From Candidatus Aenigmatarchaeota archaeon (lineage in GTDB: Archaea; Aenigmatarchaeota; Aenigmatarchaeia; QMZS01): a stretch of DNA of 35,560 nt. Location: contig JAGLVB010000024.1 of NCBI GenBank assembly GCA_023134135.1, positions 1 to 35,560 of the forward strand, in the 5' to 3' direction. The notes under the pieces are model-generated. The model made no database searches. It saw nothing but the letters and a program-made list of their open reading frames with translations, and was not told the origin of the DNA. Positions 2,019 through 34,744 of this stretch are shown piece by piece (position 1 is the first letter of the stretch; the number at the start of each line of letters is the position of its first letter). The translations under genes were made by a program, and so were the position numbers.

Positions 2019-3218
2019 ATGGAATCTCAATTGGAATTGCTGATAAAATTTTCAAGGGATTTGGACGAGAAACTTTTTTTGGAAATCAGGACTAAATTGA
2101 AAAAAAAGGAATATTTTGTTTCCGCAATCCATTCCGCGAACCGGATGTACATCAGTCTTTTTGGGGATAAGGATTTATCCAAATATGTTTTAATACTTAT
2201 AAAAAAACTAAGCGGATATTTGAAAGAACACAAACTTGGAATCAGAGATTATTATTTGACTTCCTGCGAAATTACTTTTGCGTGCGACTATACTGGAAAA
2301 GTTAAAATACCTGTTGCAAAAGCGGTTGTCTGCAATGGGAAAACCTGTAGGATAGTTTTTAAGGATATTGAGAAGGAATTTTTGAGAGACAATTTCATAG
2401 AAAGAGCAGTGATGCTGGTAGAAGAAAAAGTTTCAGGAGAAAGAGACAGGATTATTTTTGAGAGTGAAACAAAGACCACTGTTGAGAAAAATCCTTCTGA
2501 AGAAGCGGCAAATCAGGGACTTCTGAAAAAAGAAATTATAAAAGACGGAAATATATATCTTCCAAAAGGCGCGAAGAAAATCCGAAAAATAAGGGAAAAT
2601 CTTATTAAAGAGTTGGAAGAAATTTTTGAAGCAGAAGAAATTTATGTTCCTCTGGCAACTCCGTTAAATTTAATAGAAAATAAAGCTCTTGTGAAATATA
2701 TTCCAAAAGAAATTTTTTCAGAATTTTTGTCAAAACCAGTTGATACAGAAGTGTTTTATGAAGCTTATTATTTAACAGGAAAAATTCCAAAAATAGAAAC
2801 AGAAGTTATTGGGTGGGTTTTTAATGAAATACCTTTTGCTTTTTACAAGGCGATCGAGAATACAGTTGGGAATAAACAGTTTTTTTACAGCGTGAATTAT
2901 CTTAAATTAAACCTGTTGTTTCTCACAAACGAAGGTAAATATATGGATTCCAGAAAAGAATTGTTTGATTTTTTCAGGAAGTATTTTGATGATTTTGGGA
3001 TAAGATACTCAATCACTTCAAGGAAACTGGCGGGTATGGATTATTTCAAGTTCCGCGTTTTTTTAAATAAAAAATGGATGACCTGCGTTGAACTTTTATA
3101 TTCTGAAAATCATTATACAAAACCTTTTGGAATAAAAGGAAAAAGCGGTCATGCAATAATAAATATTGAGAATTTATTTTTTCTCCAGTTAGTTTATCCA
3201 TCTAAACAATTTAAGTAA
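2019..3218 (+). CDS. Degenerate class II aminoacyl-tRNA synthetase-like protein
   Basis: This 399-residue protein seems to be built like a class II synthetase of the methanogen-type SerRS kind but without clear catalytic motifs. Residues about 1-150 form an alpha/beta N-terminal region. Residues about 185-215 (YLPKGAKKIRKIRENL, then helix and EEIYVPLATPL) resemble motif 1, where a helix leads to a strand ending in Pro. Residues about 305-345 (helix DSRKELFDFFRKYFDDFG) and 350-380 (FRVFLNKKWMTCVELLYSENH, then KPFGIKG) resemble the motif 2-to-3 region. The end, SGHAIINIENLFFLQL, sits where motif 3 (GxGxGxER) should be, yet lacks the Arg. It is likely not an active synthetase. The assignment is by pattern, moderate at best. 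Confidence 0.4.
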   Translation: MESQLELLIKFSRDLDEKLFLEIRTKLKKKEYFVSAIHSANRMYISLFGDKDLSKYVLILIKKLSGYLKEHKLGIRDYYLTSCEITFACDYTGKVKIPVAKAVVCNGKTCRIVFKDIEKEFLRDNFIERAVMLVEEKVSGERDRIIFESETKTTVEKNPSEEAANQGLLKKEIIKDGNIYLPKGAKKIRKIRENLIKELEEIFEAEEIYVPLATPLNLIENKALVKYIPKEIFSEFLSKPVDTEVFYEAYYLTGKIPKIETEVIGWVFNEIPFAFYKAIENTVGNKQFFYSVNYLKLNLLFLTNEGKYMDSRKELFDFFRKYFDDFGIRYSITSRKLAGMDYFKFRVFLNKKWMTCVELLYSENHYTKPFGIKGKSGHAIINIENLFFLQLVYPSKQFK

Positions 3219-8280: not shown

Positions 8281-8420
8281 AAATAAATAACTGAAAATTT
8301 TAAATAACTACTGTGTTATTATCAAATTTTATAGGGGAATTATTTATTAAACACCAAATAAAAATTAAAAACAAGTAATATTATCCCGCGATAGCTCAAC
8401 GGTAGAGCACTCGGCTGTAG

Positions 8421-8465
8421 TGTCTAACAACTTAGTTTTACACAAACGCAAGTGTTTTTGCAGTA
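8421..8465 (+). other. tRNA-Tyr intron 1 (37/38), 45 nt
   Basis: A bulge-helix-bulge core is visible: CTGT (8415-8418) pairs with GCAG (8460-8463), flanked by the 3-base bulges AG|T (8419-8421) and TA|A (8464-8466), each cut after its second base. The anticodon stem closes the exon side. The intron-side helix is weak, with an internal ACAC/GTGT pairing (8440-8443 with 8452-8455). Confidence 0.88.
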
Positions 8466-8487
8466 ACCGAGGGGTTGCCAGTTCAAA

Positions 8488-8583
8488 GTCAGCCTTTAAA
8501 AAAGGCCAACACTCCAAACAAGGAGATTGGTCAATAAAGTATGAAGCCAAAAGAAACAAATTTGTACCTAATGGCGTTGAGAA
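8488..8583 (+). other. tRNA-Tyr intron 2 in the T-loop (59/60), 96 nt
   Basis: The core helix TTCA (8482-8485) pairs with TGAG (8578-8581), flanked by 3-base bulges AA|G (8486-8488) and AA|T (8582-8584). Joining after 8487 to 8584 gives the consensus T-loop TTCAAAT, and the T-stem pair G53-C61 stacks directly on the core. Inside the intron a hairpin GCCTTT/AAAGGC (8492-8506) is followed by CCAA...CTCC/GGAG...TTGG (8506-8530). No good C/D or H/ACA box set was seen. Confidence 0.8.
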
Positions 8584-8605
8584 TCCGGCTCGCGGGATAT
8601 TTAAT

Positions 8606-30715: not shown

Positions 30716-33700
30716 ATGAAATTAAAAGAAAGACAAAAGAATCATTTTTGGTTATATTTGGTCATTATCTGTTTATTGGTTTTCCAGATAAATATTTCTT
30801 TTGCGCTTTCAAATCCCTCCGCAATTTATTGTGAAAAATTGGGTTATGAATATGAAATTATTGATACTCCTAAAGGACAAGAAGGATTATGCGTTATTTC
30901 AACCAATACAAAATTTAAAGCATGGGATTTTTTAAAAGGGAAAATAGGGCAGGAATATTCTTATTGCGCTAAAAATGGTTATGATATTAAAATAATGGCA
31001 GGAAATAGTTCATTTACTTCCGAATATGCTGTTTGCTTAGTTCCGGAAAGTTCTTCTAAATTATTTAGTAACATTTTTTTAAAAAAAGAAAAAAAAGAAA
31101 TTCCAGTTTTAGAATTAATGAAACAGAATAATGAAAATTTATTTAAAGAAACAAAATACTTTTTTGAAAAAAATAAATTAAAAATTAGAAGTAAATTTTA
31201 TAATAAAGAAACTTCCAAAATATCCAACTCATTGAGAGGAGATTATCCTTCTTCACTTGATTGGAGAACTAAAGATGGAAAAGATTGGACAACGCCTATT
31301 AGGGACCAAGGAGATTGTGGTTCTTGTTGGGCTTTTTCAGCAACAGGTGTTGTTGAATCAAGAGTTAATATTGCGCTAAATAATTCAACTTATAATATAG
31401 ATTTATCTGAACAGGATTTGGTTTCTTGTAGTGATGCCGGAGATTGTAGTGGTGGATGGGAAAGTGGTGCTTTAGAATATATTAAAACAAATGGTACAGT
31501 AAAAGAATCCTGCTTTCTTTATTCTGCAACTGATGAATCCTGTTCAAACAAATGTGATAATTGGGATAATGAATTAATAAAAGTTCTTAATTATACTGTT
31601 ATCCAATCTTCAGTTTCGTCAATAAAACAAACAATAAATGATTATGGTCCAGTAACTGTCTATATGGAAGTTTATGATGATTTTTATGTGTATACAAATG
31701 GGATTTATGATACTATTTATTTTGCAAATAGTAGTCATTATGAGGGGCTCCACGCAATTTCAATTGTAGGATATGATGATGATAATTCTTATTGGATTTG
31801 TAAGAATAGTTGGGATATTATTTGGGGCGAATCTGGTTATTTTAAAATTAGTTATAATGCTCAGACTTTTAATTTTAACCCAATCTATTTTACAGATGGT
31901 TATTTTTTCTTAGATGAAAGTTATGTCGTGACTCAAACAGACATAGACAATGATGGAATTCCTGATGATTCTGATAATTGTCCTGAAACATTAAATTCCA
32001 ATCAAAGTGATATGGATTCTGATGGAATTGGAGATGTTTGCGATTCTGATATGGATGGAGATGGAATATTAAACGGAAATGATGAATGCAATATTACTTG
32101 GGGAACTCTTTATAATGGTTGTCCAGATATTTATTCACCAAACTTAACAATAAATTCCCCCAAACCAAACAGTTTTTTAGATTCAAAACTAATTCAGATA
32201 AATTTAAGTGTTTCTGACCCATCTTATAATAAAACAAATATTTCTATTTACAAATGCGATGTTTTAATAAATTCAACTACAAGCACAAAGAATGAAACCT
32301 TTTTAGTAAATTTATCTGTTCAGGAAGAGGGAATTTACAAAATTATCGCAACTGCATATGACAATTTTAATAATGAAAATACAACAACCGTAGATAACCT
32401 TACTATTGATACCACGAATCCTCAGATAACAATAAATTCACCAATTTCAAATTCTTTGATAAATTCAACTTCAATAATAATTGATTTGACAACAACAGAT
32501 ACAAATATGAATTATACAAACATCTCAATAACAAACTCAACAAGTTCAGTGGTAAATTCAACAACAAATCCAACAAATGGAAGTTATTTTACAATATTAT
32601 CTGTTCCTGCAGAAGGTGTTTACAATATAATTGCAACAACTTATGATAAAGCGGATAATTTTAATATAACAACAAACATAAATATTACAATTGATATAAC
32701 AAACCCCCAAATAAATTTCACATACCCAACCACAGAAACAGGAATTTATTCGCAGAATTATATAGAAACAAATGTAACTGTATCAGACACAAATTTAGCC
32801 AATGTAACAATTTATCTTTACAATTCTACAGGATTATTATATAACTTCACAAACTCCACAGGATTTTTTTACAATTTCACAAACCTCGACGATGGAACCT
32901 ATTATCTCAACGCAACAGCAAATGACACAGCAGGAAACACAAACAACACAGAAACAATAACAATAGTTTTGGATACTTCCTCAGCAATAGCCTTAAATGA
33001 AACAATATCAGACAATAATATTTATATAAACAGAAACTGGTCTTATCAGGAGGCTTATTCAGATGAAAACTTAAATGGTTCCAAATTAGAATGGAATGGA
33101 ACAAATGAAACAGCAACTGTTTCTGGAATGAGATGTTATCTTAACAAAACCGGATTGGCGGATGGAAATCATACTTATAAATTTTGGGTAAATGATTCCA
33201 CAGGCAACTGGAATTCAACTTCTGAATATTGGGTTTATGTTGATATAACAAACCCCAAAATAAATTTCATAAACCCAACCACAGAAACAGGAGACCACTC
33301 GCAGAATTACATTGAAGCAAATGTAACTGCCTCAGACAAAAACCTGGAAAATGCAACAATATATTTATATAATTCCATAGGTTTACTTTACAATTTCACG
33401 AACTCAACAGGATTTTTCTACAATTTCACAAATCTCAATGATGGAACCTATTATCTCAACGCAACAGCAAATGACACAGCAGGAAACACAAACAACACAG
33501 AAACAATAACAATAACCTTAGATACAACATCCTCAGCAATAGCCTTAAATGAAACAATATCAGACAATAATATTTATATAAACAGAAACTGGTCTTATCA
33601 GGAAGCCTATTCAACTGAAAGTTTAAATGGTTCTGGAATGGAATGGAATGGAACAAATGAAACCGCAATCGTGTCTGGAACAAGATGCTACTTAAATAAA

Positions 33701-34744
33701 ACCAATCTCACAGATGGAAATTATACTTATAAATTCTGGGTAAATGATTCAGCAGGAAACTGGAATTCAACCAATCTTTATTGGGTTTATGTTGATACTG
33801 CAAACCCGCAAATAACAAATATTTCAACTGCAACCTCAGGAACCAGCACAGTTACAATAACTCTTTCAGTAACCACCGATGAAAATGCTGTTTGCAGATA
33901 TACTATTATTTCAAATGAGACAAACTATTCTTCTATGAATACATTTAATTTATCAGGAACAACAAATCATTCAGAAACCTTCATTTATTATTCAGACAGT
34001 TCAGGAACTTATTATGTGAGATGCAAGGATACTGCGGGAAATGTTATGAATTCTTCAAATAGCGCAACTTATAACGCTGATGTAATTGTGGGTAGTGGGA
34101 GCACTAGTTCAAGAAGCAGTTCCGGCGGTATTTACATTCCTTCCTATTGGATAACAACTTACACTGTAACAGATAAAAATTTTACCGCAGGATATTCAAG
34201 AGAGCTTAAAGAAAAAAGAAGGTTAAAAATCAAGGTTGATGATGAAAACCATTATGTTGGTATTGTTAACTTAACAAATACAACAGTTACAATAAATATT
34301 TCAAGCACTCCGCAACAAGCCACTTTTTTAGTTGGAGATGAGAAAAAGTTTGAGGTTACAAATGATTCTTATTATGATATTTATGTCAAGTTGAATAGCA
34401 TAACCAATGACTTAGCAAATTTAACAATAAAGAAGATTCATGAACTAATTTTAACAGAGCCGGAAGAAGAAATTGAGGTTGAAAATCAGACTGTTGAACA
34501 GGAGGAAACAGTGCCGCAGGTAATTTGCAATCAAGGTGAAAAGAGATGTTTAGGAAAGTTTTTGCAGGAATGCAAAAGCAATGAATGGATGGCAATTCAA
34601 ACCTGCGAGTATGGTTGCAATAGTGGGGATTTGATTTGTAATCCTGTTTCATCGCAGGAATCAGAGGAAAAACCAGATTATTCAGGGATATTAATAGTTG
34701 TGTTGATTATAATTGTTTTTGGGTGGATTGGGTTATTATTTTGA
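30716..34744 (+). CDS. Surface papain-family protease with Ig-like repeats
   Basis: This 1342-residue protein has a signal peptide (hydrophobic about residues 11-31), two short Cys-containing DUF333-like units (about 33-110; YCEKLGYEYEI, then GQEYSYCAKNGY), and a C1A papain-like domain (about 180-395) with Q198, catalytic C204 (GSCWAF), H346 and N364 (KNSW). A thrombospondin type 3-like Ca2+ segment follows (about 408-458; DIDNDGIPDDSDNC and DMDGDGILNG), then several Ig-like modules very rich in N-x-S/T sites, a Cys-rich part (about 1276-1310) and a C-terminal membrane anchor (about 1323-1340). It is expected to be displayed outside the cell, with many possible N-glycans. Predicted role: host or neighbour-cell protein digestion or attachment. 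Confidence 0.88.
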   Translation: MKLKERQKNHFWLYLVIICLLVFQINISFALSNPSAIYCEKLGYEYEIIDTPKGQEGLCVISTNTKFKAWDFLKGKIGQEYSYCAKNGYDIKIMAGNSSFTSEYAVCLVPESSSKLFSNIFLKKEKKEIPVLELMKQNNENLFKETKYFFEKNKLKIRSKFYNKETSKISNSLRGDYPSSLDWRTKDGKDWTTPIRDQGDCGSCWAFSATGVVESRVNIALNNSTYNIDLSEQDLVSCSDAGDCSGGWESGALEYIKTNGTVKESCFLYSATDESCSNKCDNWDNELIKVLNYTVIQSSVSSIKQTINDYGPVTVYMEVYDDFYVYTNGIYDTIYFANSSHYEGLHAISIVGYDDDNSYWICKNSWDIIWGESGYFKISYNAQTFNFNPIYFTDGYFFLDESYVVTQTDIDNDGIPDDSDNCPETLNSNQSDMDSDGIGDVCDSDMDGDGILNGNDECNITWGTLYNGCPDIYSPNLTINSPKPNSFLDSKLIQINLSVSDPSYNKTNISIYKCDVLINSTTSTKNETFLVNLSVQEEGIYKIIATAYDNFNNENTTTVDNLTIDTTNPQITINSPISNSLINSTSIIIDLTTTDTNMNYTNISITNSTSSVVNSTTNPTNGSYFTILSVPAEGVYNIIATTYDKADNFNITTNINITIDITNPQINFTYPTTETGIYSQNYIETNVTVSDTNLANVTIYLYNSTGLLYNFTNSTGFFYNFTNLDDGTYYLNATANDTAGNTNNTETITIVLDTSSAIALNETISDNNIYINRNWSYQEAYSDENLNGSKLEWNGTNETATVSGMRCYLNKTGLADGNHTYKFWVNDSTGNWNSTSEYWVYVDITNPKINFINPTTETGDHSQNYIEANVTASDKNLENATIYLYNSIGLLYNFTNSTGFFYNFTNLNDGTYYLNATANDTAGNTNNTETITITLDTTSSAIALNETISDNNIYINRNWSYQEAYSTESLNGSGMEWNGTNETAIVSGTRCYLNKTNLTDGNYTYKFWVNDSAGNWNSTNLYWVYVDTANPQITNISTATSGTSTVTITLSVTTDENAVCRYTIISNETNYSSMNTFNLSGTTNHSETFIYYSDSSGTYYVRCKDTAGNVMNSSNSATYNADVIVGSGSTSSRSSSGGIYIPSYWITTYTVTDKNFTAGYSRELKEKRRLKIKVDDENHYVGIVNLTNTTVTINISSTPQQATFLVGDEKKFEVTNDSYYDIYVKLNSITNDLANLTIKKIHELILTEPEEEIEVENQTVEQEETVPQVICNQGEKRCLGKFLQECKSNEWMAIQTCEYGCNSGDLICNPVSSQESEEKPDYSGILIVVLIIIVFGWIGLLF
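32693..33793 (+). repeat. Tandem 549/552-bp repeat in the surface protease
   Basis: Copy 1 is 32693-33241 (183 codons), copy 2 33242-33793 (184 codons, one Thr more). They begin GATATAACAAACCCC (one C longer in copy 1) and share long identical runs, for example from the GGAACCTATTATC at 32895 on and through GACAATAATATTTATA. The copies encode about residues 660-842 and 843-1026. High DNA identity suggests recent duplication or gene conversion. The region is rich in A and C on the plus strand compared with its neighbours. Confidence 0.9.

Follow-up and report, generated by a model that had tools for sequence, protein, structure and literature searches.

The window analysed here, a stretch of 35,560 nucleotides (positions 1 to 35,560 of contig JAGLVB010000024.1, assembly GCA_023134135.1), carries on its forward strand, at 8385–8597, a tRNA-Tyr(GUA) gene that looks functional and is interrupted by two introns predicted to be spliced, one of 45 nt at the canonical position 37/38 and one of 96 nt in the T-loop at position 59/60. 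Exon 1 (8385–8420) comprises the 5′ acceptor strand, the D-arm and the 5′ side of the anticodon arm up to base 37, including the anticodon GTA; it is supported by ARAGORN on the spliced sequence and is the same in four species. Intron 1 (8421–8465), which can be read directly from the sequence, is identical at 45 of 45 positions to that of a sister species (G007; G000 denotes the host genome) and is framed by a bulge–helix–bulge (BHB) motif in which CTGT (8415–8418) pairs with GCAG (8460–8463), with bulges AG|T and TA|A. Exon 2 (8466–8487) supplies base 38, the 3′ anticodon strand, the variable loop, the 5′ strand of the T-stem (GCCAG) and T-loop bases 54–59, and is followed by intron 2 (8488–8583), the removal of which in silico gives back the T-loop TTCAAAT and a tRNA call. 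The central helix of its BHB is formed by TTCA on the exon side (8482–8485; tRNA bases 54–57) and TGAG on the intron side (8578–8581; supported by covariation over 57 introns), and the bulges lie at 8486–8488 (AA|G) and 8582–8584 (AA|T). Exon 3 (8584–8597) contributes T60, the 3′ strand of the T-stem (CCGGC), the 3′ acceptor strand and the discriminator base A73, such that the joined exons form a 72-mer with a C1–G72 pair and A73. A first-pass annotation of this DNA had proposed two BHB introns with junctions joining 8420 to 8466 and 8487 to 8584; with exactly these junctions the 72-mer is called as tRNA-Tyr(gta), and the exons and junctions are borne out.

The placement of the DNA in a DPANN-like genome was likewise correct, as the nearest named relatives, judged by the neighbouring corrinoid adenosyltransferase, are Candidatus Aenigmatarchaeota (the nearest at 92–93% protein identity), and the named close relatives of the host are largely from the Guaymas Basin (several isolate names contain Guaymas). 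Elsewhere in the window, the protein encoded at 2019–3218 (forward strand) matches only the N-terminal tRNA-binding part (PF18490, PRK00960) of the methanogen-type seryl-tRNA synthetase, a rare type, and a 1,342-residue protein encoded at 30716–34744 (forward strand) combines papain-type protease, thrombospondin type 3 and bacterial Ig-like domains.

As had been anticipated, simple scans miss the tRNA-Tyr gene: ARAGORN makes the call from the joined exons only and gives none on the unspliced gene or with only the 37/38 intron taken out, and the locus scores 15.2 bits with the Rfam model RF00005, under the cut-off of 29. In the host genome as a whole, a 986-kb draft in 31 contigs that is 73% complete, only 7 tRNAs rise above the Rfam cut-off because most tRNA genes are interrupted, as was established by reading weaker Rfam candidates and by a purpose-built multi-intron search. 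At least 10 of the about 15 host tRNA genes that were read (a list drawn from searches and targeted stretches and hence incomplete) contain a T-arm intron, namely those for Tyr, Ile(GAT), Arg(TCG), Thr(TGT), Val(CAC) and Lys(CTT) and, by eye, Gly(GCC), Asp(GTC), Phe and Thr(CGT); D-loop introns interrupt several (Lys(CTT), Val(TAC), Trp and Phe). The tRNA-Tyr gene is thus not an isolated oddity, and its T-loop intron belongs to a repeat family, a pattern that the first-pass annotation missed. Simple scans therefore leave large gaps in the tRNA inventory of this lineage.

Both introns of the window have a 4-bp central helix between exon and intron and splice sites in 3-nt bulges, the arrangement expected of a BHB. 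Intron 2 has no inner pair adjoining the bulge and thereby departs from the strict motif with outer and inner helices; it is a relaxed BHB, also a known form of BHB intron. Among 96 distinct tRNA genes parsed from nine species of the genus (the genomes compared are metagenome assemblies, all incomplete), 57 contain a T-loop intron, a proportion that is inflated rather than fair because some loci had been fetched for carrying the repeat. In 51 of these 57, the exon bases T54–T55–C56–R57 pair at all four positions with the intron tetramer that precedes the final 3-nt bulge, and controls in which the register was slid by 1–11 bases gave at most 6 complete 4-bp helices in 57. Base 57 covaries with its partner (A–T 34, G–C 14, G–U 5, A·C 1; Fisher P = 4.7 × 10−8), and although this value is too small because the sequences are related, the switch recurs across different isoacceptors. 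Given the difference from the controls and this covariation, the BHB helix of the T-loop introns exceeds chance. Strict motifs are the minority: two or more inner pairs lie directly at the bulge in 18 of the 57, an example of a strict motif being that of Arg(TCG) in G004, and most of the introns, including one of 13 nt from G002, are relaxed. In D-loop introns, D-stem bases 10–13 pair with the end of the intron (GCTC with GAGC, GTTC with GAAC; the best of a few registers). When genes with a T-loop intron and no D-loop intron were spliced in silico, ARAGORN called 40 of 40 with the expected anticodon, and it called 1 of the same 40 when the T-loop intron was left in. The T-loop intron of tRNA-Tyr belongs to a class of introns at 58/59–59/60, which interrupt the majority of tRNA isoacceptors in this genus of Aenigmatarchaeota.

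Splicing in silico gives back the consensus T-loop but leaves the T-stem imperfect, in that A52 (8480) stands opposite C62 (8586). This mismatch occurs in five of the nine species, with U62 in the other four, and could be tolerated, modified or edited. Alternative junctions inside the T-stem that would remove it were considered and rejected, given that no better 3′ half was seen by eye in 8540–8584; the alternative is also disfavoured by the relatives with U62, which keep the same exon boundaries.

A DNA search with the tRNA-Tyr gene showed that its T-loop intron matches many other places in members of the genus. The matching sequence, hereafter element A, is a repeat of about 51 nt with two hairpins (consensus GTC.GCCTTT...AAAGGC.GAC, then CCAA...TTGG), and its copy in the window (GTCAGCCTTTAAAAAAGGCCAACACTCCAAACAAGGAGATTGGTCAATAAA; 8488–8538, forward strand) starts exactly where intron 2 does. 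A covariance model (R1) was built from short-loop copies only, because MAFFT misaligned the hairpins of long-loop copies; it matches the window copy with E = 1.5 × 10−14, a value obtained with that copy included in the training set. A profile gave 52 distinct full or partial copies in the stretches fetched, of which, by inspection, roughly half lie in D-, anticodon- or T-loop introns of tRNA genes; the others, again roughly half, lie outside such introns and mainly in intergenic DNA. The first loop of the repeat often has another two-hairpin unit nested in it, and related units share the second hairpin (GCAACCC...GGTCTGCACCCC, and GAGCCTTT...AAAGGCTC); such related units also lie directly 3′ of a tRNA-Leu gene (host contig C6) and a tRNA-Ile gene (G008:C17). 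With the covariance model, the repeat was found in nine genus members and in G010, a genome of the same family, with 23 matches in G006, 17 in G005, 13 in G008 and 6 in the host (E up to 0.1, such that the weakest may be chance); in the phylum at large (156 genomes searched), weak matches appeared in just two others. Neither an exact pattern nor blastn found the repeat in viral contigs, phages or plasmids. The rest of intron 2 (8539–8583) contains AAGCCAAAAGAAACAAATTTG, which in local alignments matches the 27-nt Tyr intron of G005 and G008 and the T-loop intron of host tRNA-Val(CAC). This part is likely to be an older layer that received element A, the simplest history being insertion of element A at the 5′ edge of a T-loop intron that was already there.

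Comparison of close relatives points to rapid exchange of this material. The tRNA-Tyr exons are identical at 72 of 72 positions in the host, G001, G004 and G007 (1–4 mismatches in the remaining species), and the T-loop introns of these four differ in sequence and length (96, 63, 112 and 76 nt, respectively), the host and G007 sharing the same intron 1; between species with identical exons, the T-loop intron has thus evidently been replaced. All nine genus members have a tRNA-Tyr T-loop intron at the orthologous place, with lengths of 13–113 nt overall and of 13, 19, 27, 27 and 113 nt in the other five, and in four of the nine species a D-loop intron brings the total to three. Sites with and without an intron are found at the same place in tRNA-Ile(GAT), the T-loop of which is empty in G004 and G003 and filled in the host, G007 and G008; within the syntenic Arg(CCT)–Ile(GAT) gene pair, it is uninterrupted in G004 and holds unrelated introns in the host and G007. 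The tRNA-Cys gene is intronless in the host and has an insert resembling element A at 37/38 in G008. Whole T-loop introns are, moreover, near-identical between different tRNAs of one genome, as for Thr(TGT) and Lys(CTT) in the host and Ala(GGC) and Ala(TGC) in G005, and the Tyr intron of the window and the Asn(GTT) intron of G006 are an example across genomes, a pattern of the type known in Thermoproteales that common descent of the tRNAs would not explain. T-arm introns are not limited to this genus, because genomes from other families of the class have them: the tRNA-Tyr gene of G011 has what looks like a T-arm intron close to 53/54, and that of G024 has an intron in the T-loop.

Nor is the repeat confined to tRNA introns, as copies also lie between genes, nested in one another and within a protein gene. 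In G005 and G008, its first hairpin is inserted in frame in a gene that, from its sequence, we take to encode the archaeal glycerol-1-phosphate dehydrogenase, adding 10 codons (in the region QPLEKADTPK) that are missing from eight relatives. Two nested copies also lie inside a 490-residue open frame with intein-like sequence in G010 (contig C23).

We consider it highly probable that the locus is a tRNA-Tyr gene with two BHB introns, the second of which was formed or re-formed by a mobile, dispersed repeat family. The support comes from the sequences themselves, in the form of the gene and both of its junctions, the covariation, the repeat family and the filled and empty orthologous sites. We suggest that the 5′ half of intron 2 (8488–8538) is a lineage-restricted repeat that moves as DNA and that lands in, or replaces, a tRNA loop, where the exon TTCR would pair with a YGRR tetramer close to the 3′ end of the insert, and the insertion would therefore be tolerated as a spliceable intron. 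Both introns would then be excised by the host EndA and the exons joined by RtcB, the genes for which are both present. That the copies spread by transposition rather than by recombination is what we infer from their distribution; part of the spread between tRNA genes could nevertheless be recombination through shared T-arm sequence.

A 51-nt repeat inside the gene and the A52–C62 mismatch might instead indicate a tRNA-Tyr pseudogene broken by insertion. This we regard as barely credible, given exons with no mismatches in four species and 1–4 in the others, an intron 1 unchanged in G007 and a BHB helix preserved despite complete change of the intron; no second tRNA-Tyr gene was found in the 73% complete draft of the host genome. 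Some archaeal tRNA introns host guide RNAs, and the two stable-looking hairpins would suit a conserved functional RNA of this or another kind; however, Rfam found no known RNA family inside intron 2 (no match except tRNA and chance-level ones), and length (13–113 nt) and content differ wholly between close species, which makes a functional RNA very improbable. Neither a transposase nor a reverse transcriptase could be linked to the repeat. A search for reverse transcriptase (PF00078) gave no match in 11 genomes (incomplete assemblies), contrary to what a retro-mobilised intron would lead one to expect, and it was set aside as mobiliser. Y1 transposases of the IS200/IS605 type are present, with six matches in the host and some in G001, G003, G005 and G008, and the two hairpins and the lack of an evident target duplication resemble such elements, but the ends of seven tnpA copies (TACCCCGGGGCTCTGCCCCGATTGGG and variants) are by eye unlike the repeat, and no Y1 transposase was found in the repeat-rich G006 (65% complete); we therefore rejected IS200/IS605 as carrier and consider a non-autonomous derivative of the resident elements improbable. 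Most of the host Y1-transposase genes lie between hairpins of the type TACCCC...GGGG, which have no relation to the repeat.

Two further explanations, each of which we hold to be possible though rather unlikely, concern how the introns spread. If homologous recombination or gene conversion through common T-arm sequence were the main route, near-identical T-loop introns such as the Thr/Lys and Ala/Ala pairs above would follow naturally, but the copies located between genes, in D-loops, in anticodon loops and in a protein gene have no T-arm homology. The insert may, alternatively, be only a non-canonical archaeal tRNA intron of known type, its likeness to other copies reflecting ordinary transposition between tRNAs in the style of Thermoproteales: 59/60 is a catalogued site, similar introns recur across Thermoproteales tRNAs (PMC4090602, PMC4033280), and the T-loop introns of different tRNAs are alike here as well. 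Such a reading does not account for repeats that also occur between genes, nested in other copies and within a protein gene.

The splicing machinery presents a point against our proposal, namely that the inner helix of intron 2 is weak while the sole EndA found looks α4-like. Of the nine genus genomes, the host and seven others each yielded one EndA gene (PF01974), and G008 yielded none; the host protein, a 301-aa frame on contig C23, carries about 115 extra residues, rich in lysine, at its N terminus, its nearest solved relatives are the Methanocaldococcus jannaschii α4 enzyme and then the Nanoarchaeum equitans α subunit, and its alignment shows no insertion like that of 2cv8 where the crenarchaeal loop would be expected (a weak test). 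A second subunit was not found in these incomplete genomes, in which a diverged one could escape. Homotetrameric (α4) EndA is reported to cut canonical motifs only (PMC4033280), and relaxed T-loop motifs together with an α-type EndA would run against the rule tying such motifs to two-subunit or three-unit enzymes; whether a single-subunit α-type EndA can process relaxed T-loop motifs is thus a biochemical question. The first-pass annotation supposed that such tRNAs would need a splicing endonuclease of broad specificity, and they may do so, given that the T-loop motifs are mostly relaxed and that one α-type gene is all that was found. RtcB is present in 11 of 11 genomes tested, and in G002 it appears as two matches in one 965-residue open frame (G002:C2:39426–42179), as for an intein or a large insertion.

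In Rickettsia, palindromic repeats are inserted in frame in genes. These elements resemble the present repeat in being short, dispersed hairpin repeats that occur both between genes and in frame in protein genes (here one gene in two species), a likeness of description only and no claim of membership; unlike them, the present repeat is archaeal and forms spliceable introns in tRNA genes.

Work on archaea, chiefly on Thermoproteales, has already revealed tRNAs with several introns, T-loop introns at 59/60 and introns that transpose between tRNAs, and the tRNA introns described there in 2010 (cited in PMC4090602 and PMC4033280) share with ours BHB splicing and up to three introns per gene. The differences, as far as these accounts go, are that the host here belongs to Aenigmatarchaeota and that the intron is a discrete two-hairpin repeat that is also found in intergenic DNA, within other copies and, in frame, within a protein gene. 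The first-pass annotation had regarded multi-intron tRNAs as unusual for a DPANN genome, which is only partly right, as such tRNAs had been catalogued before in Nanoarchaeum equitans and ARMAN-1/2 (PMC4033280, PMC6379350), likewise DPANN-type small archaea with non-canonical tRNA introns. The ARMAN-2 EndA, however, is a three-unit ε2 enzyme and that of N. equitans is of the αβ type, where a single α-type gene was found here, and a dispersed repeat is not among the features described for them in the available text. Introns in most tRNA genes, often several and at non-canonical sites, are also reported for Atabeyarchaeia and Freyarchaeia (PMC11291895), which are Asgard archaea and for which the available text of that report does not describe a repeat family. 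The open-access literature yielded no paper that deals with tRNA introns in Aenigmatarchaeota.

A conceptual parallel that we would draw, tentatively and at somewhat less than even confidence, is to introners, mobile spliceosomal introns of eukaryotes (named in PMC11782384): the repeats may be archaeal counterparts of these, that is, short non-autonomous DNA transposons, with two terminal hairpins that together with conserved bases of the tRNA loop would make a BHB site and hence a working intron at once, and they would nest, turn over within the genus and also land at other sites, in-frame positions in protein genes among them. Introners are likewise dispersed DNA elements whose insertion delivers a spliceable intron, but they use the spliceosome, in contrast to the EndA/BHB splicing predicted here. 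Three features appear to be new: the phylum, the rate at which the introns are replaced and, most importantly, the nature of the intron material, a discrete repeat that is dispersed and also occurs outside tRNA genes. The finding bears on how archaeal tRNA introns move, the mechanism of which a 2014 review stated to be unknown (PMC4090602): given that the moving sequence is recognizable outside tRNA genes and that filled and empty sites exist in close relatives, its boundaries, targets and carrier become tractable.
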